Positions 3,034 to 32,725 of a stretch of 32,744 nt of DNA are shown here, one piece after another. The notes under the pieces were generated by a model, which had not been told where the DNA came from, did no database searches, and saw only the letters and a program-made list of their open reading frames with translations. Each line of letters begins with the position of its first letter. Positions within the stretch are counted from its first letter, which is position 1. Both the position numbers and the translations under genes were made by a program. The DNA is from a virus: positions 1-32,744 of IMG/VR virus record IMGVR_UViG_3300010354_006898. One strand, written 5' to 3'.

Positions 3034-3043
3034 CATATTTATA
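3034..3043 (+). promoter_or_regulatory. ATATTTAT motif copy 1 (putative phage promoter)
   Basis: CATATTTATA lies in a 51-base gap, 43 bases (start to start) upstream of the ATG at 3077. It is one of 13 similarly oriented intergenic copies in the window. Function is inferred. Confidence 0.55.
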
Positions 3044-3076
3044 TTATAGTAATAATTAAACATATTTGGGAATACA

Positions 3077-3529
3077 ATGCTATACATTTATATTGAAAAT
3101 AATCAAGTACAAGGAAGTCCAAAAGAACTTCCTACAAATTGGAAAAATATTTCAAATTTTTATTTATTGGATAATCAACAATTAAAACAAAATGGATGGT
3201 ATCCTTATCGTCTTGTAGAAATACAATTAAATGAAAATGAAATAATAAATGGTTCTAATATTGTAATTGAAGAAAATGAAGTAGTCGAATATCAAACAAA
3301 AAGAACAAAAACACAACAAGAACTTGAAAATGAAGTAGAAGGCCAATGGTTAAGAATAAGAAGAAAAAGAAATAAATATTTAACAGAAACAGATTGGACA
3401 CAGGTGCCAGATTCACCATTGACAAACCAAAAACAAACAGAATGGCAAGTATATCGTCAATCATTACGCGATATAACATCACAGGTGGATCCATTTAATA
3501 TATCCTGGCCAACTCCACCGGAGAATTGA
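3077..3529 (+). CDS. Phage tail assembly chaperone-like protein (tail fibre region)
   Basis: The 150-residue protein ends with a domain matching what I know as the phage tail assembly chaperone family Phage_tail_APC: RNKYLTETDWTQVPDSPL (about residues 97-114), then WQVYRQSLRDI and a terminal WPTPPE. This R..L..TDWTQ.PD...W..YRQ.LRDI.WP.P pattern is very characteristic and usually found beside tail-fibre genes. The N-terminal half is a small beta-rich domain with no recognised motif. The gene stands alone downstream of an ATATTTAT motif and is the last of the adhesion block. A chaperone function is inferred from the family name rather than shown for this member. Confidence 0.75.
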   Translation: MLYIYIENNQVQGSPKELPTNWKNISNFYLLDNQQLKQNGWYPYRLVEIQLNENEIINGSNIVIEENEVVEYQTKRTKTQQELENEVEGQWLRIRRKRNKYLTETDWTQVPDSPLTNQKQTEWQVYRQSLRDITSQVDPFNISWPTPPEN

Positions 3530-3530
3530 G

Positions 3531-4253
3531 GTGGATAAATCTATTTTACAATTGATAAAAGAATTAAATCTTTCTATATTCACCGAACAAGAATTGGTGG
3601 ATAAAGAAATTGTTGTCCTTTTTCCTGGTAATTTTCAACCAATGGGACAACATCAACGAGAAGAATATCAGAGACTTTGCCGTAAATTTGGTGTAGATAA
3701 TGTTTTCGTTGTGACCGATGATATGGTTGATACACAAAAACATCCATTTACATTTGATGAAAAGGTACAAATAATGAAAAGACACGGTATTAAAAATATA
3801 AAGCGTGTGACAAATCCTTTTATGCCAAATGAAATATTCAAAGATTTCGATGAAACAAATACAGTTCTTATATTCGCTGTTAGTCAAAAAAATGTTAAAG
3901 AATTAAAATCATATAAGAGAATAACGAAATACAACGGTTCAGCCAAACTACCAATGAAAGATCTTCAAAATCCATATCTATATTATATTATTACAAATGA
4001 AGTAAAATATGAAATACCAAGTTTTGGATTGATGAATTTTGATACAATAAAAAAAGCATTAGGTGATAGAGAAGCAAAATTATCAGAGTTGAAAAGTCGT
4101 TTTATATCCGTATTTGGTTGGTTTGATGCAAAAATATTTAATATGGTAATTAGTAAGATGAATACCGGCAGAGGAAAAATAGTAGAAAAATCTAATCCAT
4201 TAGGATTGGTTACAAGAACATTTTGGAAAAAAGTTTACAATGAAATAAAATAA
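3531..4253 (+). CDS. Cytidylyltransferase-like nucleotidyltransferase
   Basis: The 240-residue product starts with a GTG at 3531, supported by GGAG at 3520-3523 with a 7-base spacer; the previous stop is one base upstream. Residues 28-39, VVLFPGNFQPMG, followed by QH, match the nucleotide-binding first loop of the HIGH superfamily (NMN/pantetheine-phosphate adenylyltransferase or CTP-type). The sequence then alternates strands and helices (VDNVFVVTDD, TVLIFAVSQKN) like a Rossmann-type nucleotidyltransferase. The usual HxGH appears as MGQH, so the first His is replaced, and no ISSTxxR-type motif is seen. Similar proteins are frequent in T4-like marine phages; the substrate is unknown. The C-terminal 90 residues are basic and unassigned. 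Confidence 0.65.
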   Translation: MDKSILQLIKELNLSIFTEQELVDKEIVVLFPGNFQPMGQHQREEYQRLCRKFGVDNVFVVTDDMVDTQKHPFTFDEKVQIMKRHGIKNIKRVTNPFMPNEIFKDFDETNTVLIFAVSQKNVKELKSYKRITKYNGSAKLPMKDLQNPYLYYIITNEVKYEIPSFGLMNFDTIKKALGDREAKLSELKSRFISVFGWFDAKIFNMVISKMNTGRGKIVEKSNPLGLVTRTFWKKVYNEIK

Positions 4254-4263
4254 AGGTTATGTT

Positions 4264-4887
4264 ATGGAAATTAAAATTGATAGTGTAGAAGATGTACAAA
4301 GACTTTTACACGGAGAACATGAAAGTCAAAACAAAGTTCAAGTAGGATTTGTTGCAGACAAAAAAGAAGATGATCAAACTAGAGAAGTTGGTGAAAGGTG
4401 GTTTGATGCCGATGGAAATGAGTGGGAACAGAAGAACGGATATAAAATGAAATTAGGAAAAGTCTGGCAACAAGAGTTACATCAATACTTAACAGAATTT
4501 CCTAACTGTCAAAAAGAAACTTGTACTTGTGGAATACCAAAAAAACTTGATGAAAAAATGAGAAAGATACACGGTATGTGTTTTGATTGTGTAATTTCTA
4601 TGGAACATAAAATTCGTCTCGAAGGAAAATGGGAAGAATATGAAAAAACAAAATTAAAAGAAAATGCGGTAGCTTGGTTGAAAGAAGCTGAACACGATAA
4701 AAATTCTATTATAGATGAATTATCAAGATTAGAATTTACAAATGATTTTGGTGACATTGAAAAATGGGACACCAAAGTTAATAAAGAAGAACTCTTGAAA
4801 AAAATTGAAGATGAATTTGAGACATTCAAAACAAATTTTATTGAAAAAATAGAAAAGGATTTGGAGAACATGGGTGGAAAAAATTAG
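4264..4887 (+). CDS. Conserved phage protein of unknown function with a Cys cluster
   Basis: This 207-residue protein is not assigned to a named family. Residues 38-62 contain GERWFDADGNEWEQ, a phrase I recognise from other tailed-phage hypothetical proteins. Residues about 80-120 hold a cysteine cluster (CQKETCTCG followed by CFDC, with HG and H residues nearby) that could bind zinc. The C-terminal 80 residues are strongly charged and helical, probably coiled coil. An AAAGGTTAT element precedes the ATG. It overlaps the next gene by 14 bases, so the two are probably translationally coupled. Function unknown. Confidence 0.6.
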   Translation: MEIKIDSVEDVQRLLHGEHESQNKVQVGFVADKKEDDQTREVGERWFDADGNEWEQKNGYKMKLGKVWQQELHQYLTEFPNCQKETCTCGIPKKLDEKMRKIHGMCFDCVISMEHKIRLEGKWEEYEKTKLKENAVAWLKEAEHDKNSIIDELSRLEFTNDFGDIEKWDTKVNKEELLKKIEDEFETFKTNFIEKIEKDLENMGGKN

Positions 4888-5137
4888 TATTATGCGTGAA
4901 ATATTCATTGGCGTTGGTGGTGAAATATCATCAAAACGTGTAATGATGTTTTTATCTTTTTGTATGATGATAATACTATCTTTATTTTCTACTATTTATT
5001 CTATGAAAGTTGAACAATTTATATTTGACGGATTTTTATACATAGTTGTTGGTGGACTATTTTCTGTTGCATCAGAAAGTTTTACTAATAAATTCAAAAA
5101 AATGAACGGAGAAAAAAGTGAATCAAGTGATAATTGA
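4874..5137 (+). CDS. Small two-helix membrane protein, candidate holin
   Basis: The product is 87 residues from GTG 4874 (GGAG at 4863-4866, 7-base spacer) or 81 from ATG 4892 (MREIFIGVGGE...), which lacks a good Shine-Dalgarno site; the GTG fits other GTG starts here. Two hydrophobic segments, roughly residues 23-44 and 48-67 from the GTG, are separated by a short loop. The tail is charged and Lys/Ser-rich. Size, two-helix topology and closeness to the M15 peptidase at 5698 and the spanin-like genes fit a holin. No sequence signature proves this; it could also be another inner-membrane protein. It overlaps the upstream gene by 14 bases and the downstream gene by 20. Confidence 0.55.
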   Translation: MEKISIMREIFIGVGGEISSKRVMMFLSFCMMIILSLFSTIYSMKVEQFIFDGFLYIVVGGLFSVASESFTNKFKKMNGEKSESSDN

Positions 5138-5693
5138 AAGAGCAGTTCCAACAAATAAAAAACTTTACAATAGTGTAAAGTCAAGAATAAAAAGTAAATA
5201 CAAAGTGTGGCCAAGTGCTTATGCTTCTGCTGCTGTTGTTAAAGCATATAAAGCTGCTGGTGGTGGATATAGAAATGTAAAAGAAACGCTAAACAATCCA
5301 AAATATCAATTAGAAGGTTATTCTACAAATCCATGTGGCGATATAACAGAGTTACATTTTATTTTAGGTGAAGGTGAAAAACATAAAATAGAAGAAGCAG
5401 AATATCGTGGAAGGAAAGTTAGTTTGGGTAAACCGTTCCGTACACCAAGTGGTCCAAAAAAGTTTTCGGTATATGTTAAAAAACCAAACGGTAATATCGT
5501 AAAAGTAAACTTTGGTCACAAGGGCGAAGGTGGTAAAAAAACAATGAAAATAAAAAAGAGTAATGCGGCTCGTAGAAAATCGTTTCGTGCACGTCATAGA
5601 TGTTCAACACCTGGACCCAGACACAAGGCAAGATATTGGTCATGCCGTTTTGGATGGCCGTCAAGTGGCAAAGGTGCAATAGATAAAACTTGA
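5118..5693 (+). CDS. Small basic viral protein of unknown function (PSAYAS-type)
   Basis: The 191-residue product has GTG start 5118 with GGAG at 5108-5111 and a 6-base A spacer, overlapping the preceding gene. The N-terminus carries KSRIKSKYKVWPSAYASAAV, a motif I associate with small uncharacterised proteins of tailed phages and some giant viruses. The C-terminal region SNAARRKSFRARHRC, followed by PGPRHKARYWSCRFGW, is a second Arg/Lys/Cys/Trp-rich module recurrent in aquatic T4-like phages. Between them is a KFSVYVKKPNGNIVKVNFG beta-hairpin region that may be part of the same domain. The high charge suggests nucleic-acid or virion-core binding, but no function is established. Confidence 0.6.
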   Translation: MNQVIIERAVPTNKKLYNSVKSRIKSKYKVWPSAYASAAVVKAYKAAGGGYRNVKETLNNPKYQLEGYSTNPCGDITELHFILGEGEKHKIEEAEYRGRKVSLGKPFRTPSGPKKFSVYVKKPNGNIVKVNFGHKGEGGKKTMKIKKSNAARRKSFRARHRCSTPGPRHKARYWSCRFGWPSSGKGAIDKT

Positions 5694-5697
5694 TTAT

Positions 5698-7695
5698 ATG
5701 GATAAAGAATTATTTAAAAAAATAGTAACACCACAATTAGAGTCTTTTTCTGCTAAAAGTCCAGAAGATGCTGCTGATATAATATGTAGTGCTTATGACA
5801 AAGCACTAAAATCAAAAGCTTTTTCTGGAAGTGGACAAAATTTTTTAACAGCAAATTTAAAATCTTTAAAAGATGCATTTACTAATGGATTTAAATTAAA
5901 TAAACAAGCTGCTCAATTACAAAATAATTCTAATGTGAGTTCCGAAAATGCAATAAAAACTAGGTATCAAGAAGGAAAACACGGTATAATAAAATTTTCT
6001 GATACATACAAGGATGGTCCTATTGTATTTGTTATTGGTGGTACTCAAATAAAAGATGAAAAAGGACAAGACTGGTACCCTGGTATTAGAAATTCAAACC
6101 ACAATGAAGGTTATATGTGGGAACAAGGATTTAATAACCTAAATAATTTCCATGTCTATAATTGTAAAACATCATACGATGCCACAAGGGGATGGAAAGA
6201 GTGTTTGCAAATTTTAAATTCAAAATCAATAAAAATAACAAAAAAAATAATAGTTGGTTTTTCTCTTGGTGCACGAACAATGCATGGAGTTTTTAAACTA
6301 GAACCTGCTTCAAATTGGAGTACAATACATATCATTGGACCATCTATGCCAAGGTCAGGAGATGCAACAGAACACGTTGATATGATTAACAGTCTAAAAG
6401 ATAAAAGTAAAGTTTTTTATTTTCAAAGAGATGGATTGGATAAAGCAACAGAAGGAGCAACCGTTGCAAATAAAAAAGCAATTGGTAATTTATTCCTCGC
6501 GTTACCTAATAATGTAATAAATACGACTTCACACAATCCAGATGGTCCGTTTAAATCATCTTCATGGATTAGAAAAAATGTAATCTTAACAAAATCAAAA
6601 TCAGAAAACCCTTTATCAAAACCAAAAACCCATTCTAGTGATGACGCAGGATGGAACGTAATGACAGTTGGACTAACTAAATATTGGTTATCAGCAACCT
6701 TTAATTTAATACCACCATCACCACCAGCAGCTTCAACTACAAATATATTAGTTTCATTTCCTGGTAATATTGAAAAATTGCCAAAAAAATTAAAATTAGC
6801 ATTTAACGAAGCATTTTCAGAAAAAACCCCAAAGGCAGTTGAAGCTATTGCAAATACTTTAATAGAATATCAAAGCACAATATCTGGAATGTATACTGGA
6901 CTTACCCCAAATGGTTCACCAGTAATTAAAAAATGGAGAGGTGTTTTCGGTGACAATCCAAATAAAAAAGAATCAAGAAAAAATAATAATATAATTCCGT
7001 TGGTAAAAACAACTTCATTTAAACAACTAAATGATGGTGCAGGTTTTCAACTAAAAACAAAACGAGGAAGATTTGGGGAGTATGTAGCAAGAATTGATAC
7101 AAATGGAAATGAAGTAATACCTGCAGCTGCAAATGATTTACAAAGTACACAAAAGAATGGTAGATTAAATTTAAATCTTTTAGTAATGGTAGATGATGGT
7201 AATGCAATATTAGAAAAAAATTGTGCAAATGCCTATATTAAAATGCAACAAGATGCTAAATTACAAGGAGTTGAATTGAAATTAAAATCTACAAAAGCAT
7301 CTTCTGGTTATAGGTCATTGGGAAGACCAGGAGATTTAAAGTTTAGAGAAAATAAAAGTGTTAAACACAGAACACAATATGCAGCAAGAGAAGATTATGA
7401 TTTATGTGTAAGACAAAAAGGAGTTGGTGGGTGTGGAAGAAGAAGAGCTGCTCCGGTTTGGCCGGATCGTGGTGGTTCAAATCATGGATGGGGTAGAGCA
7501 ATCGATATTGGTCCAAGAGATGTACAAGATTGGATTAGATTGAACGGTTGGAAGTATGGATGGTATTGGGGAGAAGCACCATCAGAAGAATGGCATTTTA
7601 CATGGGTATTATCTGCAGGCATAGATCAAACATTAGGACCTGGAAAATTTTATCTATATGATGAAAAGGGTAATATAAATCCAAGTGATTATTAA
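5698..7695 (+). CDS. Multidomain lytic protein: alpha/beta-hydrolase-like domain plus C-terminal M15 (VanY-like) peptidase
   Basis: The product is 665 residues. Residues 1-70 are a helical module (QLESFSAKSPEDAADIICSA); a loosely similar helical stretch recurs near residues 360-395. Residues about 105-290 look like an alpha/beta hydrolase, with a VFVIGG strand and a GFSLGA nucleophile elbow at 187-192 (Ser189). The C-terminal 130 residues carry the M15 D,D-carboxypeptidase/L-alanyl-D-Glu endopeptidase signature: SNHGWGRAIDI (H596, D603) and EEWHF (H633), the expected zinc and catalytic residues. The peptidase would cut peptidoglycan stem peptides. Together with the preceding two-helix protein and the following spanin-like genes it is the likely endolysin; a virion-associated lysin is the alternative. 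No signal peptide or Shine-Dalgarno site is evident. Confidence 0.75.
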   Translation: MDKELFKKIVTPQLESFSAKSPEDAADIICSAYDKALKSKAFSGSGQNFLTANLKSLKDAFTNGFKLNKQAAQLQNNSNVSSENAIKTRYQEGKHGIIKFSDTYKDGPIVFVIGGTQIKDEKGQDWYPGIRNSNHNEGYMWEQGFNNLNNFHVYNCKTSYDATRGWKECLQILNSKSIKITKKIIVGFSLGARTMHGVFKLEPASNWSTIHIIGPSMPRSGDATEHVDMINSLKDKSKVFYFQRDGLDKATEGATVANKKAIGNLFLALPNNVINTTSHNPDGPFKSSSWIRKNVILTKSKSENPLSKPKTHSSDDAGWNVMTVGLTKYWLSATFNLIPPSPPAASTTNILVSFPGNIEKLPKKLKLAFNEAFSEKTPKAVEAIANTLIEYQSTISGMYTGLTPNGSPVIKKWRGVFGDNPNKKESRKNNNIIPLVKTTSFKQLNDGAGFQLKTKRGRFGEYVARIDTNGNEVIPAAANDLQSTQKNGRLNLNLLVMVDDGNAILEKNCANAYIKMQQDAKLQGVELKLKSTKASSGYRSLGRPGDLKFRENKSVKHRTQYAAREDYDLCVRQKGVGGCGRRRAAPVWPDRGGSNHGWGRAIDIGPRDVQDWIRLNGWKYGWYWGEAPSEEWHFTWVLSAGIDQTLGPGKFYLYDEKGNINPSDY

Positions 7696-7713
7696 AATGT
7701 TTTGTATAAAATT

Positions 7714-7723
7714 ACATATTTAT
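7714..7723 (+). promoter_or_regulatory. ATATTTAT motif copy 2 (putative phage promoter)
   Basis: ACATATTTAT directly abuts the start region of the following gene (ATG 7722 or 7728). If it acts as a promoter here, transcription would have to start almost at, or inside, the coding region, giving a leaderless message. This makes the copy less certain than the others. Confidence 0.4.
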
Positions 7724-7727
7724 GTAT

Positions 7728-8072
7728 ATGACAAATGAACAAAAAAATATATTAAAAAGCATAGTAAGAGAATATGTAATTCAATATGCCAAAGAAGGAA
7801 AAAAGCCGACCGGTGGTTTAAGAGGTTGGTTTAGAGATCGTTGGGTTGATATTTCTCGTAAGAAAAAAGGTGGTGGTCATCCAGAATGTGGTGCATCCGC
7901 TGGTAGTAAAGCTAGAAAAGGTGGTAAGAGAGCATATCCTAAATGTGTTCCTGCAGCAAAAGCTGCTTCAATGTCAAAAAAACAAAAACGTAGTGCGGTT
8001 ACAAGAAAAAGAAAACACGGTGCAACTGCTCGTGGTAAAGCAAAAATGGTTTCAACAGATACAAAAGGTTAA
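7728..8072 (+). CDS. Small Lys/Arg/Gly-rich basic viral protein
   Basis: The protein is 114 residues from ATG 7728 (MTNEQKN) or 116 from ATG 7722. After a short N-terminal helix it contains GGLRGWFRDRWVDISRKKKG, then GGHPECGASAG, a YPKCVPA segment and a very basic tail ending KRKHGATARGKAK. This arrangement is familiar to me from small uncharacterised proteins of aquatic phages and large eukaryotic DNA viruses (a DUF-type family whose number I cannot state with certainty). Two conserved Cys and several His could bind metal. Nucleic-acid binding is plausible but unproven. It lies between the M15 peptidase and the spanin-like genes. Confidence 0.65.
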   Translation: MTNEQKNILKSIVREYVIQYAKEGKKPTGGLRGWFRDRWVDISRKKKGGGHPECGASAGSKARKGGKRAYPKCVPAAKAASMSKKQKRSAVTRKRKHGATARGKAKMVSTDTKG

Positions 8073-8074
8073 TT

Positions 8075-8413
8075 ATGGAAGATGTTTTGACACAAAAAAT
8101 TGGTAATTACATAAAAATATTTGCTATAGGAGTTCTTTCTATTCTTTTATTTTACAATGTTTATGAAAATAATCGTTCAAAAGAACAATTAAAACAATCA
8201 ACAAAAACTGCAGATAGTTTAGAAGCACTCATAAACAAATATGAATTTGACTATACTAATTTAAAAAAAATAGCAAATGAATTAGACTCAATTATTAAAG
8301 TTCGTAAGGATAGTATTATTATCATAAAACAAAAATTTTATGTTTATCGTGATAAAGAAATAAAAAATCCAGATGAAGCCACAAAATATATTATCAATTT
8401 TTTGAAAGACTAA
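8075..8413 (+). CDS. Membrane-anchored coiled-coil protein, candidate i-spanin (Rz-like)
   Basis: The 112-residue protein has one N-terminal transmembrane segment (about residues 13-30, IKIFAIGVLSILLFYNVY) followed by a long charged helical region with heptad-like spacing. That N-in topology and size is the layout of inner-membrane spanin subunits. It starts 2 bases after the preceding stop and uses an AAAAGGTT Shine-Dalgarno-like site. The next gene, 3 bases downstream, also codes a secreted coiled-coil protein, so the pair may act together in envelope disruption. The assignment rests on topology and context only. Confidence 0.5.
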   Translation: MEDVLTQKIGNYIKIFAIGVLSILLFYNVYENNRSKEQLKQSTKTADSLEALINKYEFDYTNLKKIANELDSIIKVRKDSIIIIKQKFYVYRDKEIKNPDEATKYIINFLKD

Positions 8414-8416
8414 TTT

Positions 8417-8788
8417 ATGAAGTATCTAATAATTTTATTTTTATCAGCAACAAGTATGTTTGCTTCTGTAAAAGATTCTACTATATGTTTTAAAAAATCC
8501 GAAATAGTATTATTGGCAAACAAAATACAACTAATTAGAGATTCCGTTGAATACTTAACTGCCGTTGTAAATGCACAAGATACTTTGATTGAATTTCATC
8601 AAACAAGATTTGACTTGTATCATCAACAATTAAAAAATCGTGACCAAGTTATTGATGCTTGTAAAAAAAGAAGCACGGAACTTGAAAAAATAAATGAAGA
8701 ACTACAACCTCGTTGGTATGATAATAAATTACTTTGGTTTTTTAGTGGGGTAGGAACAGTTCTCGGAATAATGTTTGCAGTACAATGA
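8417..8788 (+). CDS. Secreted coiled-coil protein with C-terminal membrane helix, spanin-like partner
   Basis: The 123-residue product begins with a signal-like sequence (MKYLIILFLSATSMFAS, no lipobox Cys), continues as a coiled coil from about residue 25 to 95, and ends with a second hydrophobic helix at about 103-121 (FFSGVGTVLGIMF). Both ends could therefore be membrane-linked, unlike a classical lipoprotein o-spanin. It lies 3 bases after the Rz-like gene, and its TGA overlaps the terminase ATG (ATGA at 8785-8788). A lysis role is inferred from the neighbours; a small virion or membrane protein is an alternative. Confidence 0.45.
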   Translation: MKYLIILFLSATSMFASVKDSTICFKKSEIVLLANKIQLIRDSVEYLTAVVNAQDTLIEFHQTRFDLYHQQLKNRDQVIDACKKRSTELEKINEELQPRWYDNKLLWFFSGVGTVLGIMFAVQ

Positions 8789-10371
8789 GTCAAGTTACTA
8801 AAAATTTAAAAGACATAATTAAAGAGGAGTTTGCTAAATGTGCAGCAAATCCTGTTTATTTTATGAAACGTTATGCAAAAATTCAACATCCAACTCGTGG
8901 CAAAATTCTTTTTGAACTATACCCATTTCAGGAAGACGTACTTAAAGAATTTAATGCAAATAGATGGAATATAGTTTTAAAATCTCGTCAGTTAGGAATA
9001 TCTACACTTATTGCAGGTTACTCACTTTGGTTGATGTTATTTAATCAAGATAAGAATATTCTTGTTATTGCTACAAAACAAGAAACTGCAAAAAATTTGG
9101 TAACAAAAGTTCGTGTTATGTATGACAATATGCCAAGTTGGTTAAAGACTGGCGTTCAAGAAGATAATAAACTTTCACTTCGATTTAAGAACGGTTCACA
9201 AATAAAAGCCGTTTCTGCCGCCGCTGATTCTGCTCGTTCTGAGGCACTTTCACTTCTTATCATAGACGAGGCCGCCTTTATTGACGATATAGATAGAATA
9301 TGGGCATCTGCACAACAAACACTTGCTACCGGTGGAACTGCAATTATTAACTCTACGCCAAACGGTGTTGGTAACTTTTATCACAAACAATGGGTAAAGG
9401 CAAAGTTAGGTGAAAGTTCTTTCAATCCAATAGAACTATTATGGCAAGTTCATCCAGACCGTGACCAAAAATGGCGTGATGAACAAGACATACTGTTAGG
9501 TCCTGATATGGCTAAACAAGAATGTGATGGAAACTTTCTTGCGTCTGGCCGTGCAGTTATTGATGGGGAATTAGTTAAATGGTACGAAGATACATATGTA
9601 TGTGAACCAAAAGAAAAACGAGGAGTTGAAGATGCATATTGGATATGGGATTATCCAGATTCTAATAAATCATACATAGTAGTTGCTGACGTTGCACGTG
9701 GTGACGGAAACGATAACTCAGCGTTTCATGTAATAGATGTTGATAATTTGGAACAGGTTGCAGAATACAAAGGAAAACTTGATACAAAAACTTATGGTAA
9801 TATGTTGGTATCAGTTGCTACTGAATATAATGATGCTTTGCTTGTAGTTGAAAACGCAAATATTGGTTGGGCAGTCATTCAACAAATTATTGATAGAGGT
9901 TATCCAAATCTTTATTACACATATCGTGAAGACGGTTACATAGATCCTTCTGTTCATATTCCAAAAGGATATGATATAAAAGATAAATCACAAATGGTTC
10001 CAGGATTTACTACAAGTGCAAAAACAAGACCACTACTCATTTCAAAGTTAGAAACTTATTTTAGAGAAAGAACTCCAATAATAAAATCTTCAAGATTAGT
10101 TGAAGAACTTTATGTTTTTGTTTGGAACGGATCAAAGGCAGAAGCACAACAAGGGTATAATGATGACTTAACATTATCATTTTCTATTGGACTTTGGGTT
10201 AGAGATACTGCAATAAAACTTCGTCAAGAAGGACTAATGCGTACTCGTATGAGTTTAGATTATATTGGAAAAGGCAGTCCAATTCAATCATCAGCACCAA
10301 GTAATATTGATGATGGTTGGTCTATGCAAATTAGAGGACAAGATGAAGATTTAACTTGGTTGATAAAGTAA
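8785..10371 (+). CDS. terL: Terminase large subunit (T4 gp17-like)
   Basis: The 528-residue protein is the DNA-packaging motor ATPase and nuclease, acting at the portal vertex of the prohead. The ATPase domain has a Q-motif-like YPFQEDVL (46-53), the T4-type Walker A SRQLGIST (67-74), Walker B LLIIDEAAF (157-165; D161, E162) and a coupling STPNGVGNFYHK motif (190-201). The C-terminal RNase-H-like nuclease has its acidic residues in VVADVARGDG (D302), VVENAN (E356) and NDDLTLS (D460/D461). Length is close to other T4-type terminases. It overlaps the upstream gene by 4 bases. No small terminase gene is visible nearby. Confidence 0.95.
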   Translation: MSQVTKNLKDIIKEEFAKCAANPVYFMKRYAKIQHPTRGKILFELYPFQEDVLKEFNANRWNIVLKSRQLGISTLIAGYSLWLMLFNQDKNILVIATKQETAKNLVTKVRVMYDNMPSWLKTGVQEDNKLSLRFKNGSQIKAVSAAADSARSEALSLLIIDEAAFIDDIDRIWASAQQTLATGGTAIINSTPNGVGNFYHKQWVKAKLGESSFNPIELLWQVHPDRDQKWRDEQDILLGPDMAKQECDGNFLASGRAVIDGELVKWYEDTYVCEPKEKRGVEDAYWIWDYPDSNKSYIVVADVARGDGNDNSAFHVIDVDNLEQVAEYKGKLDTKTYGNMLVSVATEYNDALLVVENANIGWAVIQQIIDRGYPNLYYTYREDGYIDPSVHIPKGYDIKDKSQMVPGFTTSAKTRPLLISKLETYFRERTPIIKSSRLVEELYVFVWNGSKAEAQQGYNDDLTLSFSIGLWVRDTAIKLRQEGLMRTRMSLDYIGKGSPIQSSAPSNIDDGWSMQIRGQDEDLTWLIK

Positions 10372-10388
10372 TTTTCATTTTTTTCAAA

Positions 10389-10398
10389 CATATTTATA
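10389..10398 (+). promoter_or_regulatory. ATATTTAT motif copy 3 (putative phage promoter)
   Basis: CATATTTATA lies in the 58-base gap between terminase and portal, 41 bases before the portal ATG, and is followed by TATAATAATTAAC. A very similar ATAATTAA stretch follows copies 1 and 4. Confidence 0.6.
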
Positions 10399-10429
10399 TT
10401 CATGTATAATAATTAACAATAGGTGAAAA

Positions 10430-12310
10430 ATGGCAGAAAGAAAATCGTTGTTTGATAGATTAAAAACACTTTTTTCTACTAATGTTGTTGTTAGAAACGT
10501 TGGTGGTAAAAGATTAAAAGTTGTAGATACTGCACGTTATCAAGCAGACGGAAATCCACATACATCAAAAGTTGTTGACAGATACGGAAGACTTCATGGA
10601 TCTAGAGGAACACCAATATCGGTATACAATCAATACAATTCTTTTTCTGCTACAAAAATAGATCTTTATACAGATTATGAAGCAATGGACACCGATGCAA
10701 TTGTTTCTTCTGCACTTGACATATATTCAGATGAAAGCACACTAAAAAATGATTCCGGTGATGTATTAACAATAAGAACGGACAATGATAATATAAGAAA
10801 AATACTTCGTAATTTATTTTATGATATTTTGAATATAGAATATAATCTTTGGCCTTGGACACGTAATCTTTGTAAGTATGGTGACTTTTATCTATATCTT
10901 GATGTAAAAGAGGGGTTAGGTGTTACAAATGTAGTTCCTTTTTCACCATATGAAGTTCAAAGAGAAGAAGGAACGGATCCAGAACATATCTATATGACTA
11001 AATTTATTTATGAAGGTCCTCTCGGTAAGGGAGAATTTCAAAATTATGAAATGGCACATTTTCGTTTATTAGGTGATACAAATTTTTTACCTTATGGTAA
11101 ATCAATGTTGGAAGGCGCTCGTAAATTGTATAAACAATTAGTTCTTATGGAAGATGCAATGTTAATACATCGTATTATGAGGGCACCTGAAAAAAGAGTA
11201 TTTAAGGTTGATATTGGTAATATACCACCTGGTGAAGTTGATGGGTATATCCAATCTATGATGAATAAAATGAAAAAAATTCCAATAGTAGATGAAAAAA
11301 CCGGAAACTATAACCTACGTTTTAACATGCAAAATCTTTTGGAAGACTATTATCTTCCTGTTCGTGGAACACAATCTGCAACAAATATAGAAACACTTCC
11401 TGGTTTACAATATCAGGCAATAGAAGATGTTGAATATTTAAAAAGTAAAATATTTGCTGCACTAAAAATACCAAAAGCATTTTTGGGATATGATGAAACA
11501 ACCGAAGGTAAAGCAACTCTTGCAGCCCTTGATATTCGTTTTGCCAGAACAATAGAAAGAATACAGAGAATAGTTGTTTCTGAATTGACAAAAATTGCAA
11601 TAGTTCATCTTTATTCACAAGGATATGAGAACGCAGATTTAGTTAATTTTGAATTAGACTTAACAAGTCCATCTATCGTTTATGAACAAGAAAAAGTTGC
11701 TCTTATGAAAGAAAGAGTGGATCTTGCTTCACAGTTAATTGAAAATAAACTATTATCAATGAAATACATTTATTCAAATATATTCAATTTGACAGATGAT
11801 CAAGCAGAGTTTGAAAAAAATGAAATACTTGAAGATATTAAACATAAATTCCGTCAAACTCAAATTGAAAGTGAAGGAAATGATCCTGCTATAACAAAAG
11901 AATCATTTGGAACTCCACATGATATTGCCAGTATGCATGTTAAAGGTGGTGGTAAAATGATAAGTGATAATGAAGTTCCAGATGGAGGGTGGCCAGGTGC
12001 AGGAAGACCTGCAAAGAATTTATCGTATTCGACTGATGATAGTCCATTTGGAAGAGATCCTATTGGTAAAAAAGATGTAGGAAACACATTAAAAATAAAT
12101 CAAAGTACAAAGCATGAGTATAAAAAAGGAAGTCCATTATCAACGGAAGGAAAAAAAATAACAAAAGATATGGAAAGACTAATAAACGATATGGCTGGTA
12201 TAAAGGTTAAAACTAAACAAATTATATCGGAAAGTCTAAAATCAACAAAAATTTCCGAAGAAAATGAACCAAATTTACTAAATGAAGACAATTTATTGGA
12301 TGAATTATGA
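10430..12310 (+). CDS. Portal protein (T4 gp20-like)
   Basis: The 626-residue protein forms the dodecameric portal through which DNA enters and to which the tail joins. Recognisable gp20 phrases are MDTDAIVSSALDIYSDEST (about 83-101), PWTRNLCKYGDFYLYL, the stem/crown segment MMNKMKKIPIVDEKTG and the conserved AALKIPKAFLGYDETTEGKA. The last 110 residues or so are charged, Gly/Lys/Ser-rich and probably disordered, longer than in T4. An AGGTGAAAA site precedes the ATG. It follows terminase directly, as in other T4-type phages, and has its own upstream ATATTTAT motif. Confidence 0.93.
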   Translation: MAERKSLFDRLKTLFSTNVVVRNVGGKRLKVVDTARYQADGNPHTSKVVDRYGRLHGSRGTPISVYNQYNSFSATKIDLYTDYEAMDTDAIVSSALDIYSDESTLKNDSGDVLTIRTDNDNIRKILRNLFYDILNIEYNLWPWTRNLCKYGDFYLYLDVKEGLGVTNVVPFSPYEVQREEGTDPEHIYMTKFIYEGPLGKGEFQNYEMAHFRLLGDTNFLPYGKSMLEGARKLYKQLVLMEDAMLIHRIMRAPEKRVFKVDIGNIPPGEVDGYIQSMMNKMKKIPIVDEKTGNYNLRFNMQNLLEDYYLPVRGTQSATNIETLPGLQYQAIEDVEYLKSKIFAALKIPKAFLGYDETTEGKATLAALDIRFARTIERIQRIVVSELTKIAIVHLYSQGYENADLVNFELDLTSPSIVYEQEKVALMKERVDLASQLIENKLLSMKYIYSNIFNLTDDQAEFEKNEILEDIKHKFRQTQIESEGNDPAITKESFGTPHDIASMHVKGGGKMISDNEVPDGGWPGAGRPAKNLSYSTDDSPFGRDPIGKKDVGNTLKINQSTKHEYKKGSPLSTEGKKITKDMERLINDMAGIKVKTKQIISESLKSTKISEENEPNLLNEDNLLDEL

Positions 12311-12316
12311 GATTGT

Positions 12317-12326
12317 CTATATTTAT
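12317..12326 (+). promoter_or_regulatory. ATATTTAT motif copy 4 (putative phage promoter)
   Basis: CTATATTTAT lies in the 51-base gap after the portal gene, 45 bases before ATG 12362. A GGTATAATTAACA stretch then leads directly into that start codon. Confidence 0.55.
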
Positions 12327-12361
12327 TGTATGAAAGTGTGCACTAACAGGTATAATTAACA

Positions 12362-13204
12362 ATGAGAAAAATAAAGCATTCAAAGTTTAAAAATACTGGA
12401 ATGTTATTTGAACTATTAACACGTCAAATAACATCGGATATTATTTCTTCAAATGAATCCGTAGCAATCCAAATACTCAAAAAACATTTTGGTAAGAATA
12501 CAGAACTTATCAAAGAGTATACATTGTATAAAACTCTTTCTGATGAAAAACTAAAATCAGAATCTAAAGCAAATATGCTTATAGGTGCGGTAATAACTGC
12601 AAGACGTGGATTAAATAAATCAAGATTGAACGAAGAAAAGTATCAATTGATAAAAGCAATTAAGGATAATTTTGATATTGACTTATTTTTTCAAACAAAA
12701 GTTCAAAACTACAAACTATTGGCATCAATATACAAAATTTTTGAATATAAAGATTTGGATAATCCAGTAGAATTAACAAAATCAAAAATAACAATAATAG
12801 AAAATATAACAGAAAAACCAAATACAACTATAATAAACGAAACAAATACACTTTCAAATGAATCAAAAGAAGTTCGTTTATTATCACAAAAACTGTTAGT
12901 TGAAAAATTTAATAAAAAATATAATGATTTCAATGAATCACAGAAGATGTTGCTTAGAGAATATATTGGAAATGTAAGCAATACAAATAATCTTAAATCT
13001 TTAATACAAACGGAAGCGGTAAATATAAAAAATATTTTTAGTAAAAATATGTATAAAGTAAAAGACAAATCTTTAAAAATAAAATTAACAGAAATAGTTA
13101 ATTTATTAGATTCATATGAACAAATAAAGAATGTTGATGAAAACCATATATCAGCATTATTGAGATATTATAGTTTGATAGAAGATTTATCTTGGAGTAA
13201 ATAA
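12362..13204 (+). CDS. Conserved T4-like head-module protein of unknown function
   Basis: The 280-residue product is rich in Lys, Asn and Ile and mostly helical. Its N-terminus, MRKIKHSKFKNTGMLFELL then RQIT, and the later ANMLIGAVITARRGLN and FEYKDLDNP resemble a protein I know only as a conserved hypothetical between portal and prohead protease in far-T4 phages. No catalytic or membrane motif is visible. The stop overlaps the next start by one base (TAATG), so it is co-translated with the next gene. Position suggests a role in prohead assembly or the portal vertex, but this is inference. Confidence 0.6.
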   Translation: MRKIKHSKFKNTGMLFELLTRQITSDIISSNESVAIQILKKHFGKNTELIKEYTLYKTLSDEKLKSESKANMLIGAVITARRGLNKSRLNEEKYQLIKAIKDNFDIDLFFQTKVQNYKLLASIYKIFEYKDLDNPVELTKSKITIIENITEKPNTTIINETNTLSNESKEVRLLSQKLLVEKFNKKYNDFNESQKMLLREYIGNVSNTNNLKSLIQTEAVNIKNIFSKNMYKVKDKSLKIKLTEIVNLLDSYEQIKNVDENHISALLRYYSLIEDLSWSK

Positions 13205-13521
13205 TGTCAATAAATCCAATACACCCCTATGATTACCCAGCATCACAAGCAAATGATTTTCAAAGAAAAGGTCATCCTGGTAAATTTTTAAAATCAATAA
13301 CATGCACATCAGGAACAACATATTTTACTGGCTCCAATTATGGTGTAGGTGGTATTATTGTTGCAGATACAACAACTGGTACAGTTACTCTTTCTGCTGG
13401 AGGAAGTATATCTTTAGCAGATATTGCCGGATCAAAACGTATACTTGAAATATCAGCAGAATCGGTTACAGTAAATTCTGGAACCGTATATGTGTTGATA
13501 AAAAATCAAATTTCAAAATAA
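13204..13521 (+). CDS. Small beta-rich structural-type protein, function unknown
   Basis: The 105-residue product starts inside the preceding stop codon (TAATG). After a polar N-terminus (HPYDYPASQANDFQRKGHPG) the sequence is a run of short beta strands with Gly/Thr/Ser turns (GVGGIIVADTTTGTVTLSAG, then VYVLIKNQI). That profile is usual for small phage head decoration or virion proteins, and the position between portal and protease fits a head protein. No family is recognised with confidence. Confidence 0.55.
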   Translation: MSINPIHPYDYPASQANDFQRKGHPGKFLKSITCTSGTTYFTGSNYGVGGIIVADTTTGTVTLSAGGSISLADIAGSKRILEISAESVTVNSGTVYVLIKNQISK

Positions 13522-13529
13522 GGCATAAT

Positions 13530-14033
13530 ATGAATATACAATCATTCATAAAACAAATACAAGAGTCGGAAGATTACCGAAAATTTAAAGAAGAAATTGA
13601 ACTTGATGAAATGAGTACAACTGCTTCTGTTCCAGGATATCAAACTCCAAATGCGTTCTCTCCAAATGAAACAGATGTTGATACCCACAATAAAGAAACT
13701 GCAGAAGTATATGGGTATAAAATTGTTCCAAAACAAAAAAAGAAAAATTTTGAGTCTGCTTACAAACAAGCAATGAATGTAATGCATGAGGGAACATATA
13801 AAGAATTTCGTAAAGATGAAACCCGTTCAACTAATAGAAAAATAAATGATTCTATTAAAAATATAAACAAAACAATCTATGAAGTAGAAAGAGTAGTTGA
13901 ACATGCATTAAAACTAAAAACAGAAATGAATGTTGATCAAAGAACTCTTTGGGGAGAGTCTATGGCTAGATTGAGAAAAATATCTGAAAGGATAAACAGA
14001 ATTACAAAAAAGATTAACGAATTAGGTGCATAA
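13530..14033 (+). CDS. Helical head-module protein, possible prohead core component
   Basis: The 167-residue protein has an N-terminal helix (SFIKQIQESEDYRKFKEEI), then the phrase EMSTTASVPGYQTPNAFS, which I recall as conserved in this position in far-T4 phages, a basic linker (PKQKKKNF) and a C-terminal coiled coil ending ARLRKISERINRITKKI. The last part resembles the C-terminus of the DUF3008-type protein encoded at 14706 (RISERIVKLQRKL). It lies just before the prohead protease, where scaffold-core proteins are usual, so a core role is plausible but not shown. The AAGG before the ATG is well placed. Confidence 0.55.
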   Translation: MNIQSFIKQIQESEDYRKFKEEIELDEMSTTASVPGYQTPNAFSPNETDVDTHNKETAEVYGYKIVPKQKKKNFESAYKQAMNVMHEGTYKEFRKDETRSTNRKINDSIKNINKTIYEVERVVEHALKLKTEMNVDQRTLWGESMARLRKISERINRITKKINELGA

Positions 14034-14034
14034 C

Positions 14035-14703: not shown

Positions 14704-14705
14704 AA

Positions 14706-15305
14706 ATGCCTGCATTATCACAACAACAGCAAAAAATTATGGGATTGGCACTTGCATATAAGAGAGGAGATGTATCGGCATCCGATGTTAGCCCTAATAT
14801 AAAAAAGATTGCAAGCGGTATGTCTGAAAAAGAATTAGAAAAATTTGCAAGTACAAGTCATAAAGGTCTTCCAAAGAAGGTCGGTGAAACAAAAATTAAA
14901 GTTGAAGATTTAAAAAGAATGGTTCAAGATGCTGTTGAAGAAGTTATGCAAGAAAAATTTAACGCAAAACACTTAACACCAGAACAAAAACAACAATTTA
15001 AAGAAGCGGTATCAAATTACAACGAATATAGAGAAGTAATACACAGATCTAAATCATTACCAGAAGCAGTTAGTAAAATTACTGCAATAGTTGAGTTTGC
15101 TAATAAAAATATAGTTGAAGAATCAGGTGATTGGTTTGAAGGTGTATCATATAACAGAAAATCGAATCAAATTCGTGAATCTTTGAAAGAATTTCATAGA
15201 ATATCCGAAAGAATTGTAAAATTACAGAGAAAATTAGAGTCAATATACGATGGCATCGGAAATCATCTTGGTAAATTTTACGAAATTAAACAAAATAATA
15301 AATAA
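14706..15305 (+). CDS. DUF3008-like protein with helical C-terminal domain, probable head/core protein
   Basis: The first 60 or so residues match the small bacterial/phage DUF3008 family: MPALSQQQQKIMGLALAYKRG, then IKKIASGMSEKELEKFASTS and HKGLPKKV. The remaining 140 residues are a helical, charged domain that ends GDWFEGVSYNR, then coiled coil, then GNHLGKFYEI. I recognise that WF...F.KIS.R...LE.IY...G..L..FYEI pattern from T4-like aquatic phage head-region proteins. GGGAG at 14695-14699, inside the end of the protease gene, gives a 6-base spacer to ATG 14706. Core or scaffold function is inferred from position between protease and scaffold. Confidence 0.6.
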   Translation: MPALSQQQQKIMGLALAYKRGDVSASDVSPNIKKIASGMSEKELEKFASTSHKGLPKKVGETKIKVEDLKRMVQDAVEEVMQEKFNAKHLTPEQKQQFKEAVSNYNEYREVIHRSKSLPEAVSKITAIVEFANKNIVEESGDWFEGVSYNRKSNQIRESLKEFHRISERIVKLQRKLESIYDGIGNHLGKFYEIKQNNK

Positions 15306-15319
15306 AAAGGAAATAGGTT

Positions 15320-15558: not shown

Positions 15559-15569
15559 CTATATTTATA
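15559..15569 (+). promoter_or_regulatory. ATATTTAT motif copy 5 (putative promoter of scaffold and capsid genes)
   Basis: CTATATTTATA is followed at once by CTATAATACCC. The scaffold ATG is 123 bases downstream, the longest leader of any copy here. Confidence 0.6.
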
Positions 15570-18511: not shown

Positions 18512-18522
18512 ATTATTTATAC
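18512..18522 (+). promoter_or_regulatory. ATATTTAT-like motif copy 6 (putative phage promoter)
   Basis: ATTATTTATAC lies 15 bases after the capsid terminator and 39 bases before ATG 18551. It deviates from the core by one base (TTATTTAT). Confidence 0.5.
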
Positions 18523-19308: not shown

Positions 19309-19319
19309 TGCTATTTATT
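19309..19319 (+). promoter_or_regulatory. ATATTTAT-like motif copy 7 (putative phage promoter)
   Basis: TGCTATTTATT lies 11 bases after a terminator and only about 13 bases before ATG 19324. The core deviates at one base (CTATTTAT). The following gene has no Shine-Dalgarno site, so its message may be nearly leaderless. Confidence 0.4.
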
Positions 19320-23251: not shown

Positions 23252-23262
23252 ACATATTTATA
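23252..23262 (+). promoter_or_regulatory. ATATTTAT motif copy 8 (putative phage promoter)
   Basis: ACATATTTATA lies in the 102-base gap after the gp15-like gene, 52 bases before ATG 23304. Confidence 0.6.
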
Positions 23263-26116: not shown

Positions 26117-26147
26117 TGGGGAGATGAAATACTCTCCCCACTTTTTT
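26117..26147 (+). terminator. Rho-independent terminator after the sheath gene
   Basis: An 8-bp stem, TGGGGAGA (26117-26124) and TCTCCCCA (26133-26140), has an 8-base loop and is followed by CTTTTTT. Confidence 0.88.
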
Positions 26148-26155: not shown

Positions 26156-26165
26156 ACATATTTAT
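26156..26165 (+). promoter_or_regulatory. ATATTTAT motif copy 9 (putative tube gene promoter)
   Basis: ACATATTTAT lies 9 bases after the sheath terminator and 38 bases before the tube ATG at 26194. Confidence 0.62.
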
Positions 26166-26734: not shown

Positions 26735-26772
26735 CCCTATATTTATTAGCAATAATGTTAATGAATATAGGG
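26735..26772 (+). other. Inverted repeat containing the promoter motif, upstream of the dehydratase gene
   Basis: CCCTATATT (26735-26743) and AATATAGGG (26764-26772) are perfect 9-bp arms around a 20-base loop, followed by TTTTATTTTT and then the ATG at 26783. The first arm contains motif copy 10 and the second arm holds the only GG-rich stretch that could act as ribosome binding site. An RNA hairpin here could act as a weak terminator or limit translation. Confidence 0.5.
26737..26746 (+). promoter_or_regulatory. ATATTTAT motif copy 10 (putative phage promoter)
   Basis: CTATATTTAT lies 13 bases after the tube terminator and 46 bases before ATG 26783. It overlaps the first arm of an inverted repeat. 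Confidence 0.58.
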
Positions 26773-27749: not shown

Positions 27750-27760
27750 TGATATTTATA
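27750..27760 (+). promoter_or_regulatory. ATATTTAT motif copy 11 (putative phage promoter)
   Basis: TGATATTTATA lies 53 bases before ATG 27803, in the 54-base gap after the dehydratase gene. Confidence 0.57.
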
Positions 27761-28888: not shown

Positions 28889-28921
28889 AGTCTACATATT
28901 TATACGTATGTAGACTTTTTT
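28889..28921 (+). terminator. Terminator whose stem and loop contain the promoter motif
   Basis: A perfect 10-bp stem, AGTCTACATA (28889-28898) and TATGTAGACT (28907-28916), with loop TTTATACG, is followed by TTTTT. Motif copy 12 (ACATATTTATA, 28894-28904) spans the end of the first arm and the loop. Confidence 0.8.
28894..28904 (+). promoter_or_regulatory. ATATTTAT motif copy 12 (putative tape-measure promoter)
   Basis: ACATATTTATA lies 50 bases before ATG 28944 and inside a terminator hairpin, so the same DNA could end the upstream message and start the next. Confidence 0.58.
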
Positions 28922-31900: not shown

Positions 31901-32708
31901 TGGTATTGGAGGTCTTCTTGGAGCAGGTTATGGGTTATATCAAAATGCAGGAACATTATTTGGTGGAGATAAACAGCAACAACAAAAGCCACAACAGGCA
32001 ATGGCACAACAGGCAGCCAGTATGTCAAGACAATCTGCGGAAGAATTGAAAAAATTAAATGAACAAATGCAACTTCTCGGTGGTGATAGAACATGGCAGG
32101 CATCAAAAGCCGTGAATCAAGTTGCAAAATCAACAACAGCTTTAAGTGATGCATTTAGTTATTTCTATAAATCAGGTGCCCATTTAACATTCAGTTATGT
32201 TGTTAAAACATTTGATTCAGTAAACAATTCAAAGATATATTCTTTTGCTAGTGGTATAACAAGCGTATCAAACAGCATTGGTGATTTAAGTAAAAAACTA
32301 TCAAAGTTAGATGTTGCTAAGTTAGAAAGGGTTTCACAAATAACAAATCCTGGAATAATGTCTACAATTACTGGCGCTGCTGGATCTTTATTTGGTAGTG
32401 TAAAATCATTCTTTGGATTTGGTGGAAGCAGTGCACAGCAAACATCAACCGTTCCATCATCAACAACAACGGTAGGTGCGAACAAAAATGCAGGATCAAA
32501 CGTTTCACAAACATCATCGGGTGTATCAGTTAATGTAAACACGGTTGCATTAGAACAAAAAATAGATAAGTTAATAGGAATTATTGGACAAATGGCATCA
32601 CAACCTACATACATAAAGATAGGAGATAGAACCGTTGAAGCAATAAGTAGCGAAATAGATTTTAAGAAAAATAAAGAAGTAGGACTTCAAAGATATGGTA
32701 GTATCTAA
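28944..32708 (+). CDS. Tape-measure protein
   Basis: The 1254-residue product is the largest gene in the window and follows the tube, sheath and assembly genes. The first 280 or so residues are a charged coiled coil. Hydrophobic segments follow at about 290-312 (IVGWIAAVPLGAFLMNKMG) and 332-362 (GFAMALPFMALGGIFSLLV). A long helical middle runs to about 760. A Gly/Ala-rich hydrophobic stretch at about 925-1010 (SSALSGAMLGGTIGSIVPGV) is typical of tape-measure C-terminal regions. The end contains a helical LEQKIDKLIGIIGQMAS and the phrase IKIGDRTVEAISSEID. Such proteins set tail length and are delivered into the envelope. ATG 28944 (GGTG at 28933-28936, 7-base spacer) is preferred over the in-frame TTG at 28941. 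No peptidoglycan hydrolase motif is seen. Confidence 0.85.
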   Translation: MAKKRSEGSSTNIIQLKKLLADLEKSILATKKQIVAEDKKSADYLEKMAKLDAIRSKNRNEYYRIRRQIDQIEKESQKRAEKELKVREDLAKQIKDENKELDKIAKKEEAKLKRAAERQKLREKELSFEREIGELQEKSAILMRSVNSDIQKKADKLKISGQFVTQIADKTDEIKKLFKGTAEETKAFEKTLKYTNDNASKIDRLSGKILENMENMKKKGYQLIDTYEIERDLKEQSARLDLNASKMGAERYMFQKKMIDAQSKEFEKLKQVNQKMAEKSKQAKETRENIVGWIAAVPLGAFLMNKMGLGKIITGTKTVKETIKDWGTALKGFAMALPFMALGGIFSLLVTVMKKLVGIVIELDQDISDLSKQFAISRDRSEKLFSSLGKMALRMRVVGVNTKELAKTLEDLTEEYGTNLDRLERASIRNGMLQNISLLREKWQLTNEQALNFYQNSKIMGVGMDKLAQASMLVNKNVLNSREALKAVANVPKTIAMGFKGAIKELAAFAGAAKVMGIDLKTFHDAIKAQLDIESGLENQFTTEVLTGVHMQEMDAYRYAIDMRQTDKAFGLQMQMYQRIIDKYGSKLEKNNLTQTGLDAFVKLFNVSEDEFVSQIARFGELQDQFGKGSLKAIQKMQESNKKLVGKGGAAGFILGETKAKEGASITERFSDDMEKMKIELKDKLFPVIDKLHSMYDELMPKVRTIVSTMAESLPGIVETVVKLLGIAEKIANVVLALFQPVLQLMEWMGIIVEKDEKQADGTTKKVKTLNAEWFNMWNILGTIGLYFGAKGLLTWGIKKTGEALGEMLKKGWTGFKDWVKGSKQATEAVDDVKQSISGDNTKKTGKKNLSRKERRQLRRSGKTGNNIAKEVLEEVDVTKTKKPGMFSRMKTKLTPKPGGGMMKNFGKKLLNPKNLLKNVSKGGIVGLVGGLVADATLGIAKDQAEQAGNYKTAAGLDVGSSALSGAMLGGTIGSIVPGVGTAIGAGIGGLLGAGYGLYQNAGTLFGGDKQQQQKPQQAMAQQAASMSRQSAEELKKLNEQMQLLGGDRTWQASKAVNQVAKSTTALSDAFSYFYKSGAHLTFSYVVKTFDSVNNSKIYSFASGITSVSNSIGDLSKKLSKLDVAKLERVSQITNPGIMSTITGAAGSLFGSVKSFFGFGGSSAQQTSTVPSSTTTVGANKNAGSNVSQTSSGVSVNVNTVALEQKIDKLIGIIGQMASQPTYIKIGDRTVEAISSEIDFKKNKEVGLQRYGSI

Positions 32709-32715
32709 ACATATC

Positions 32716-32725
32716 CATATTTATA
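32716..32725 (+). promoter_or_regulatory. ATATTTAT motif copy 13 (putative phage promoter of the next gene)
   Basis: CATATTTATA follows the tape-measure stop by 7 bases; AGGAAATAATAGGAAAAAAT, with Shine-Dalgarno-like AGGA, runs to the window end. The gene it serves starts beyond the window. Confidence 0.58.

Follow-up and report, generated by a model that had tools for sequence, protein, structure and literature searches.

What is the short AT-rich element that recurs between the genes of the IMG/VR virus record IMGVR_UViG_3300010354_006898? The whole record, 32,744 bases with a GC content of 32%, was analysed and is called the window here. An initial annotation counted thirteen same-direction copies of the element and asked if it was a mirrored T4 late promoter. 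All thirteen places listed do carry TATTTAT on the + strand. We read them, with high confidence, as late promoters belonging to a Far-T4-like phage. They are a variant of the T4 type and are read rightward, with the genes.

The window probably holds the structural late-gene module of a Far-T4-like phage, and the host is probably a member of the Bacteroidota. We base this on gene content and on the relatives of the capsid and portal proteins; the Far-T4 placement itself rests on capsid and portal similarity. The + strand holds 34 of 35 automatically called genes. The products encoded include a tail fibre, terminase, T4-type portal, protease, major capsid, PhoH-like protein, tail sheath, tail tube and baseplate hub. 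Microcystis phage Mel-JY01 is the nearest named relative (capsid 70%, portal 75%). Flavobacterium phage immuto (capsid 54%, portal 52%), the uncultured LR756508 and Rhodothermus phage RM378 are also near. Marine and freshwater viromes have yielded Far-T4 phages, a group that includes cultured phage RM378, though as an unusual member (PMC4360716). For counting, and for unannotated relatives, genes were simple open reading frame (ORF) calls.

Positions of the copies are listed in Table 1. The places given by the initial annotation were right, but its coordinates fell 1–2 bases before the octamer. As it stated, eleven copies have the exact octamer ATATTTAT. The remaining two, at 18514 and 19312, read TTATTTAT and CTATTTAT. 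Hence, the common core is TATTTAT. Between window genes this core occurs 12 times forward and never in reverse, and it occupies 12 of 14 regions (those of at least 20 nucleotides (nt), 991 nt in total). In 5,000 dinucleotide shuffles the mean was 2.1 and the maximum 10. For the exact octamer, 10 intergenic copies were observed against a shuffle mean of 0.76 and a maximum of 5. Copy 7717, the thirteenth, was outside this count; the first ATG of its ORF overlaps it. Within automatically called genes (31,038 nt) there are 5 sense and 9 antisense cores. The sense density is thus about 75 times lower within genes than between them; the initial annotation had named equal density as a refuting result. 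The exact octamer had been reported once inside a gene (20540); we found a second + strand copy of this kind at 28122. Four octamers are on the − strand (+ coordinates 3009, 3372, 22683 and 30688), each inside a gene. At nine copies, the first T of TATTTAT is 35–50 nt from the start codon. The copy at 19312 is 12 nt from it. For 7717 the distance is 11 nt, provided that 7728 is the gene start, and for 15562 about 120 nt, provided that ATG 15682 opens the gene. The record ends without a gene after the copy at 32718.

The orientation of the motif is shared by relatives. A first count of the octamer was made in 79 of 80 portal loci, those with more than 90% forward genes, using rough gene calls. 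Between genes there were 259 forward and 7 reverse copies; within called ORFs there were 99 and 10. We then scored TATTTAT in 1,105 regions upstream of genes. They came from the window, the IMG/VR record G001, Mel-JY01, immuto and 160 further loci, of which the portal had located 80 and the sigma factor the other 80. This gave 487 sense and 67 antisense copies, in a count that was not dereplicated and in which loci L047 and L116 lie in G001. In codirectional gaps, sense copies outnumber antisense copies in G001 (37 vs 9), immuto (39 vs 12) and Mel-JY01 (31 vs 15). The G001 contig runs the opposite way round and the motif still runs with gene direction. RM378 has genes on both strands and the variant TATTTAA. 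Here, codirectional gaps hold 16 sense and 6 antisense copies, and divergent gaps 7 and 6. Separately, 7 of the 32 RM378 TATTTAA sites listed have their start codon 13 nt away.

A motif search with strand tracking had been advised. Using de novo expectation maximisation (EM), with no preset consensus, ATATTTAT was the top sense motif in Mel-JY01 and immuto. The same procedure returned ATATTT[AG]T in G001 and TTATTTAA in RM378. With the window alone the best 8-mer, ACATATTT, was the same site shifted. As a positive control, the T4 late region yielded TTATAAA/TATAAATA. Antisense runs carry no information, as they merely return the reverse complement. Upstream of the portal gene, the sense core is present in 69 of the 78 loci examined (of 80). 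In the other nine, four have TACTTAT and five a different sequence. The motif is largely kept, not lost, at this syntenic position. TATTTAT also precedes homologues of window genes more often than other genes in Mel-JY01 (8/13 vs 15/87, p = 0.0015), immuto (8/11 vs 27/82, p = 0.018) and G001 (8/14 vs 24/89, p = 0.03; all p values uncorrected).

We examined spacing around 229 dereplicated sites. Nothing is conserved upstream of about −17: counted from the motif, information content stays below 0.1 bit between −40 and −17. There is no −33/−35 box in these elements, as in promoters of the T4 late type. Downstream, the largest group of start codons is 35–49 nt from the first T (111 of 229 sites). 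A second, separate group is at offset 11 (13 sites) and offset 12 (5 sites), with none at 10 or 13–15. This group represents fewer than 18 independent events because it includes orthologous genes (window 7728 and 19324). Where the start codon is at least 25 nt away (193 sites), 63% have A and 1% have C at offset 11. This base is A in 42/42 distinct portal-upstream sequences and a purine at 9 of the 13 window sites. Among 926 distinct sites, coding copies included, ATG occurs 45 times at offset 11 of TATTTAT and 8–28 times at other offsets from 7 to 24. At offset 11 of three control patterns it occurs 16, 21 and 20 times, and their peaks, of up to 40, fall at other offsets. At window sites 10391 and 28897, the ATG present at offset 11 does not open the gene. 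The data fit a predicted RNA start at offset 11 or 12, with some messages, including those of window genes 7728 and 19324, probably leaderless. The arrangement at 7717, with ATG at offset 11, has counterparts in locus L008 and G001, orthology being judged by position and first residues only.

How do the elements relate to T4 late promoters? The latter are described as having TATAAATA between −13 and −6 and no −35 box (PMC1524935, PMC2988020). The consensus of our elements is YATATTTAT(A/T). The predicted register is Y(−13)A(−12)T(−11)A(−10)T(−9)T(−8)T(−7)A(−6)T(−5). With +1 at offset 11, differences from TATAAATA therefore fall on −9/−8, where AA becomes TT. A start one base later would shift the register and weaken the match to −9/−8. 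In T4, gp55 flips the bases at −12 (Tyr97), −9 (N13, H95) and −8 (T99), according to PMC7892883. Like T4 late promoters, the elements are single AT-only −10 octamers that read forward, in the sense direction, ahead of late structural (virion) genes. In the predicted register, A −12, T −11, A −10, T −7 and A −6 are shared. The elements differ in having TT at −9/−8, an extra T at −5 and some apparently leaderless sites. Because the two central bases of YATATTTAT differ, we file them as a variant of the T4 late promoter and not as the same promoter. Shifted late consensus sequences have been described for Aeh1 and other T4-like phages (PMC1524935, PMC2988020). The changes reported for Aeh1 are at −13/−12, whereas the Far-T4-like clade keeps A −12 and, in the predicted register, changes −9/−8. 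The mirror relation is also explained. TATTTATA is the reverse complement of the T4 box because the frame TAT--ATA is palindromic. The initial annotation was correct about the reverse complement. The relation is best read as a coincidence of this frame, the forward reading being a change of central AA to TT, and not as an inverted promoter.

A search for a gp55 homologue had been proposed. Using T4 gp55 as the query, phmmer and tblastn found nothing significant in Mel-JY01 or immuto. Gene 153 of immuto gave a weak match to the late-sigma family phrog_234 (E 0.008, and 0.5 in a second scan), which was absent in Mel-JY01 and G001. Another family, phrog_12791, matched T4 and none of five other records. 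Gene 153 has orthologues in Mel-JY01 (E 1e-38), G001 (58% identity), LR756508 (42%) and, weakly, RM378 (E 2e-3). These phages share a divergent gp55-like protein. A query with the G001 protein found 96 IMG/VR relatives, of which the best 80 were kept. The Mel-JY01 protein found no IMG/VR relative; against ten IMG/VR records, mostly fragments, it was present in G001 alone. In immuto, Mel-JY01 and G001 the gp55-like gene is directly followed by ATATTTAT.

Profile and structure comparisons point to sigma region 2. In a single hhalign comparison, the gp55-like family profile aligned with T4-type gp55 (6 sequences) over 99 columns with probability 92.9 and E 3.7e-7. The AlphaFold model has a mean predicted local distance difference test score (pLDDT) of 76 and a predicted template modelling score (pTM) of 0.43. 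Model residues 13–109 align to sigma region 2 (sigmaB, Z 10.5, 2.3 Å over 90 residues). By title, nearly all of the structure-alignment matches listed are sigma factors or complexes of RNA polymerase. The full model gave 83 Foldseek matches. None had E <0.001, and among the first ten, nine are titled sigma factor or RNA polymerase complex. A PDB sequence search with the gp55-like profile gave no relevant match. The protein thus appears to be a remote member of the sigma region 2 homologues.

DNA-contact residues were compared by profile alignment, as had also been proposed. The position of Tyr97, which contacts −12 in T4, is Tyr in 11/11 family members, and the position of R57 is Arg in 8/11. 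Residues of the other pockets are mostly changed: N13 to T in 9/11 and T99 to S in 10/11. H95 is F in 11/11 family members and in 4 of 6 T4-type sequences. Compared with T4 gp55, the proteins are also longer (232–264 vs 185 amino acids). The T4-type sequence of Stenotrophomonas phage Moby has K13 and S99. Therefore, the link between residues and promoter is only a correlation. The isolated model of the C-terminal domain (pLDDT 89) looks like a helix-turn-helix. Its match to sigma region 4 in a Thermus initiation complex (chain F, residues 348–417; Z 4.6, 2.8 Å over 68 residues) is one of the best, but is level with matches to unrelated helical folds. Seven proteins, neighbours among them, were scanned against PHROG, and none was gp33- or clamp-like. 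The IMG/VR group of gp55-like proteins (L116 6001–6723) has a conserved hydrophobic tail, approximately W-Y-x-I-Q-D-I-I-N, that differs from T4. This tail might bind a clamp. In RM378, p144 is annotated as a sigma factor, in addition to the gp55-like p020 (NC_004735 128329–128928, 17032–17826).

Bacteroidota promoters might offer a different source for the motif. Flavobacterium sigma-A promoters have TAnnTTTG at −12 to −5 (PMC9723704). They resemble our elements in having a T-rich box near −7 and in their probable hosts. Hence, the copies could be variants of the −7 box TAnnTTTG, used by unmodified host polymerase, with the resemblance between TATATTTG and TATATTTAT as the source of the motif. 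ATATTT is common to both, and EM in G001 merges the two as ATATTT[AG]T. However, the sigma-A promoters have TA at −12/−11 and G at −5, and host-type promoters of these phages add TTG 19–20 nt upstream. In Mel-JY01, TTG is 20 nt upstream at 19/27 TAnnTTTG sites; in G001 it is 19–20 nt upstream at 17/25. Octamer sites have no TTG at these spacings (0/22 in Mel-JY01 at 20 nt, 0/32 in G001 at 19 and 20 nt). They lack the Bacteroidota sigma-A combination of TTG near −33 with TAnnTTTG. Gene classes differ too. With zones of Mel-JY01 set by position, TAnnTTTG precedes 1/20 structural genes and 24/80 other genes, whereas TATTTAT precedes 11/20 structural genes and 12/80 elsewhere. Depletion of TAnnTTTG before homologues of window genes was not significant (p 0.18 in Mel-JY01, 1.0 in G001). 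On the spacing of TTG and the gene-class distribution we rejected a host sigma-A variant, to which we leave a slim chance.

In immuto, TAnnTTTG was not found upstream of called genes. Its host-type promoters (MW353175; L088, L089) seem instead to be TTG-N20-TATATTTAGGTA. Among 17 TTTAGGTA sites listed, TTG about 20 nt upstream was read by eye in at least 13 and was absent in 1. Early 5′ ends in immuto would lie near TTG-N20-TATATTTAGG sites. Mel-JY01 (PP395634; L092–L095) has a cyanobacterial host on record, yet it has the Bacteroidota-type promoters TTG-N20-TAnnTTTG (19/27 TAnnTTTG sites). Its true host may be a Bacteroidota companion in the culture.

Some sites are next to terminator-like hairpins. 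Five window copies had been placed in or 9–15 bases after hairpin terminators. The number five is right: copies 18514, 19312 and 26159 begin 17–26 bases past the stem (fewer counting the T-run), and 26740 and 28897 overlap a terminator-like hairpin. For the 229 sites, a terminator-like hairpin is found within 35 nt upstream of 43 (shuffle mean 3.65, maximum 7, 20 shuffles). Five sites straddle one (shuffle mean 0.1, maximum 1). Overall, positions 1–20000 of the window have only 11 terminator-like sites against 7.6 in shuffles. The box is within the hairpin 5′ arm at 26740, and at the arm end and in the loop at 28897. Hence, the hairpin would form in read-through RNA and not in promoter-initiated RNA. 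Mel-JY01 has an arrangement like that at 28897 near 36232. Similarly, the late promoters of T4 genes e and I-TevI are reported to lie in the 5′ portion of a hairpin, which in that case blocks translation (PMC3014915).

These hairpins bear on a suggestion of the initial annotation, that the copies are RNA-processing sites. As processing or stability sites, they would be cut by an endonuclease a few bases past the motif. Strand bias and the fixed distance to starts are compatible with this, and some sites overlap hairpins. However, a terminator-like hairpin upstream, as at 43/229 sites, would leave little through-transcript to cut. T4 late promoters share the design and the same phages have a sigma homologue; processing accounts for neither the terminators nor the homologue. 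We regard it as very unlikely.

Leftward firing fares worse. A true inverted T4 late promoter, TATAAATA(T), would make antisense RNA, and the reverse complement of many copies exactly matches the T4 consensus. However, 34/35 genes are rightward, and T4's own promoter reads forward in EM. ATAAATA has no excess of ATG at offset 11 (16 vs 45 for TATTTAT). In the window and relatives 487 sense copies face 67 antisense, with start codons grouped 11–12 nt downstream. Gene direction and ATG offsets led us to reject it as highly improbable. An artefact of composition or coding might be imagined in a genome of 32% GC and for a core without G or C, but shuffles, strand asymmetry and syntenic conservation contradict it, and its chance is negligible. 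The remaining proposal of the initial annotation, a forward promoter with an altered late consensus and a phage late sigma factor, is probably correct. Strand bias, the start-codon group at 11–12 nt and the gp55-like protein in relatives support it.

Several observations count against T4-type late promoters. At four of the 13 window sites offset 11 is T, and the purine is at offset 12. One control pattern has ATG 40 times at offset 7 and 37 times at offset 23. The antisense core is also, or solely, present in 11 of 78 portal-upstream regions. Whole-genome octamer counts in Mel-JY01 are near even by strand (51 vs 39). The motif precedes many genes without window homologues (15/87 in Mel-JY01, 24/89 in G001, 27/82 in immuto). 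TATTTAT therefore occurs beyond structural genes as well. No sigma gene is seen in the window record; relatives supply the link to the gp55-like protein. Homology to gp55 is remote, pTM is low (0.43), and Z below about 13 may be chance in helical proteins. T4 gp55 (7d7c, 7d7d) is not among the 50 matches listed by either structure program. The change of H95 to F does not explain the switch, because cyanophage gp55s have F despite the T4-like late consensus reported for cyanophage S-PM2 (PMC2988020). A further possible difference from T4 concerns the families PF02916 and PF16805 (T4-type gp45 and gp33): T4 itself gave matches, against 0/4 for immuto, Mel-JY01, G001 and RM378, though divergent versions could escape. 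Therefore, the T4 activation scheme may not apply.

We nonetheless favour late promoters of the T4 type, and propose the following mechanism. Each copy would be a single −10-like box, and RNA synthesis would begin about 11 nt after the first T of TATTTAT (A at 11, sometimes 12). We infer that the gp55-like protein reads this box. Host RNA polymerase with this sigma factor would melt the box and, in the manner of T4 gp55, flip out bases, and the pockets for −9 and −8 would be adapted to T in place of A. At sites after or over intrinsic terminators, the late operon would be cut off from the upstream one and then restarted. A possible but doubtful extension is that the late sigma factor is unsplit, joining gp55-like region 2 to a region-4-like domain (in T4 the separate gp33). 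The pocket changes N13 to T and T99 to S would have co-evolved with −9/−8, T4-type clamp coupling would be lacking, and the split system of T4 would be the derived state.

We found no paper evidently on this motif in these phages in the literature searched, which covered few subscription journals. Within that literature the consensus, its two-base relation to the bases flipped in T4 and the candidate sigma factor appear to be new. It is not a new kind of system. For Far-T4 genome fragments, PMC4360716 reports no detection of T4 core transcription-regulation genes and a transcription that might be unlike that of T4. Its main text does not contain the words promoter, gp55 or sigma. A late promoter with a candidate late sigma factor would give Far-T4 phages a testable late-gene switch. 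The simple pattern could mark late operons in uncultured contigs. It would also provide a natural two-base specificity change to set against the cryo-electron microscopy structure of T4 gp55.

Table 1. Predicted late promoter elements and overlapping hairpins in the window, with the first T of TATTTAT and the predicted RNA start (+1).
Feature	Coordinates	Strand	Octamer	First T	Predicted +1	Context
Late promoter −10-like element	3035..3042	+	ATATTTAT	3036	3047–3048	Next gene 3077, tail fibre assembly-like (PHROG match)
Late promoter element	7716..7723	+	ATATTTAT	7717	7728	+1 probably A of start codon ATG 7728 (leaderless mRNA)
Late promoter element	10390..10397	+	ATATTTAT	10391	10402	Before portal gene 10430
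Late promoter element	12319..12326	+	ATATTTAT	12320	12331–12332	Before gene 12362
Late promoter element	15561..15568	+	ATATTTAT	15562	15573–15574	Leader of about 109 nt to gene at about 15682 (scaffold-like by position), then major capsid gene 16804
Late promoter element	18513..18520	+	TTATTTAT	18514	18525–18526	After terminator-like hairpin 18461–18487
Late promoter element	19311..19318	+	CTATTTAT	19312		After terminator-like hairpin 19274–19293; ATG 19324 at offset 12 (leaderless, predicted)
Late promoter element	23254..23261	+	ATATTTAT	23255	23266	Before 23304 and tail sheath gene 23672
Late promoter element	26158..26165	+	ATATTTAT	26159	26170	After hairpin 26117–26140, before tail tube gene 26194
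Hairpin, 17 pairs, then T-run	26735..26772	+				Promoter element in 5′ arm; promoter-initiated transcripts would be without that arm
Late promoter element	26739..26746	+	ATATTTAT	26740	26751	Before epimerase gene 26783; +1 is last base of hairpin 5′ arm
Late promoter element	27752..27759	+	ATATTTAT	27753	27764	Before baseplate hub-like gene 27803
Hairpin, 9 pairs, T-tail	28889..28916	+				Element from 5′ arm end through loop; predicted +1 is first base of 3′ arm
Late promoter element	28896..28903	+	ATATTTAT	28897	28908	Before large gene 28944
Late promoter element	32717..32724	+	ATATTTAT	32718	32729	At record end

The long leader at 15562–15682 has counterparts of 87 nt in Mel-JY01 and 105 nt in immuto ahead of the gene. 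Just upstream of it, 15320–15547 is a phage-encoded gene for a ribosomal protein S21-like product (PHROG match, E 9e-8). At the left end of the window, an RCC1-like repeat protein is encoded at 856–1998, adjoining a collagen-like tail fibre gene (1–840).

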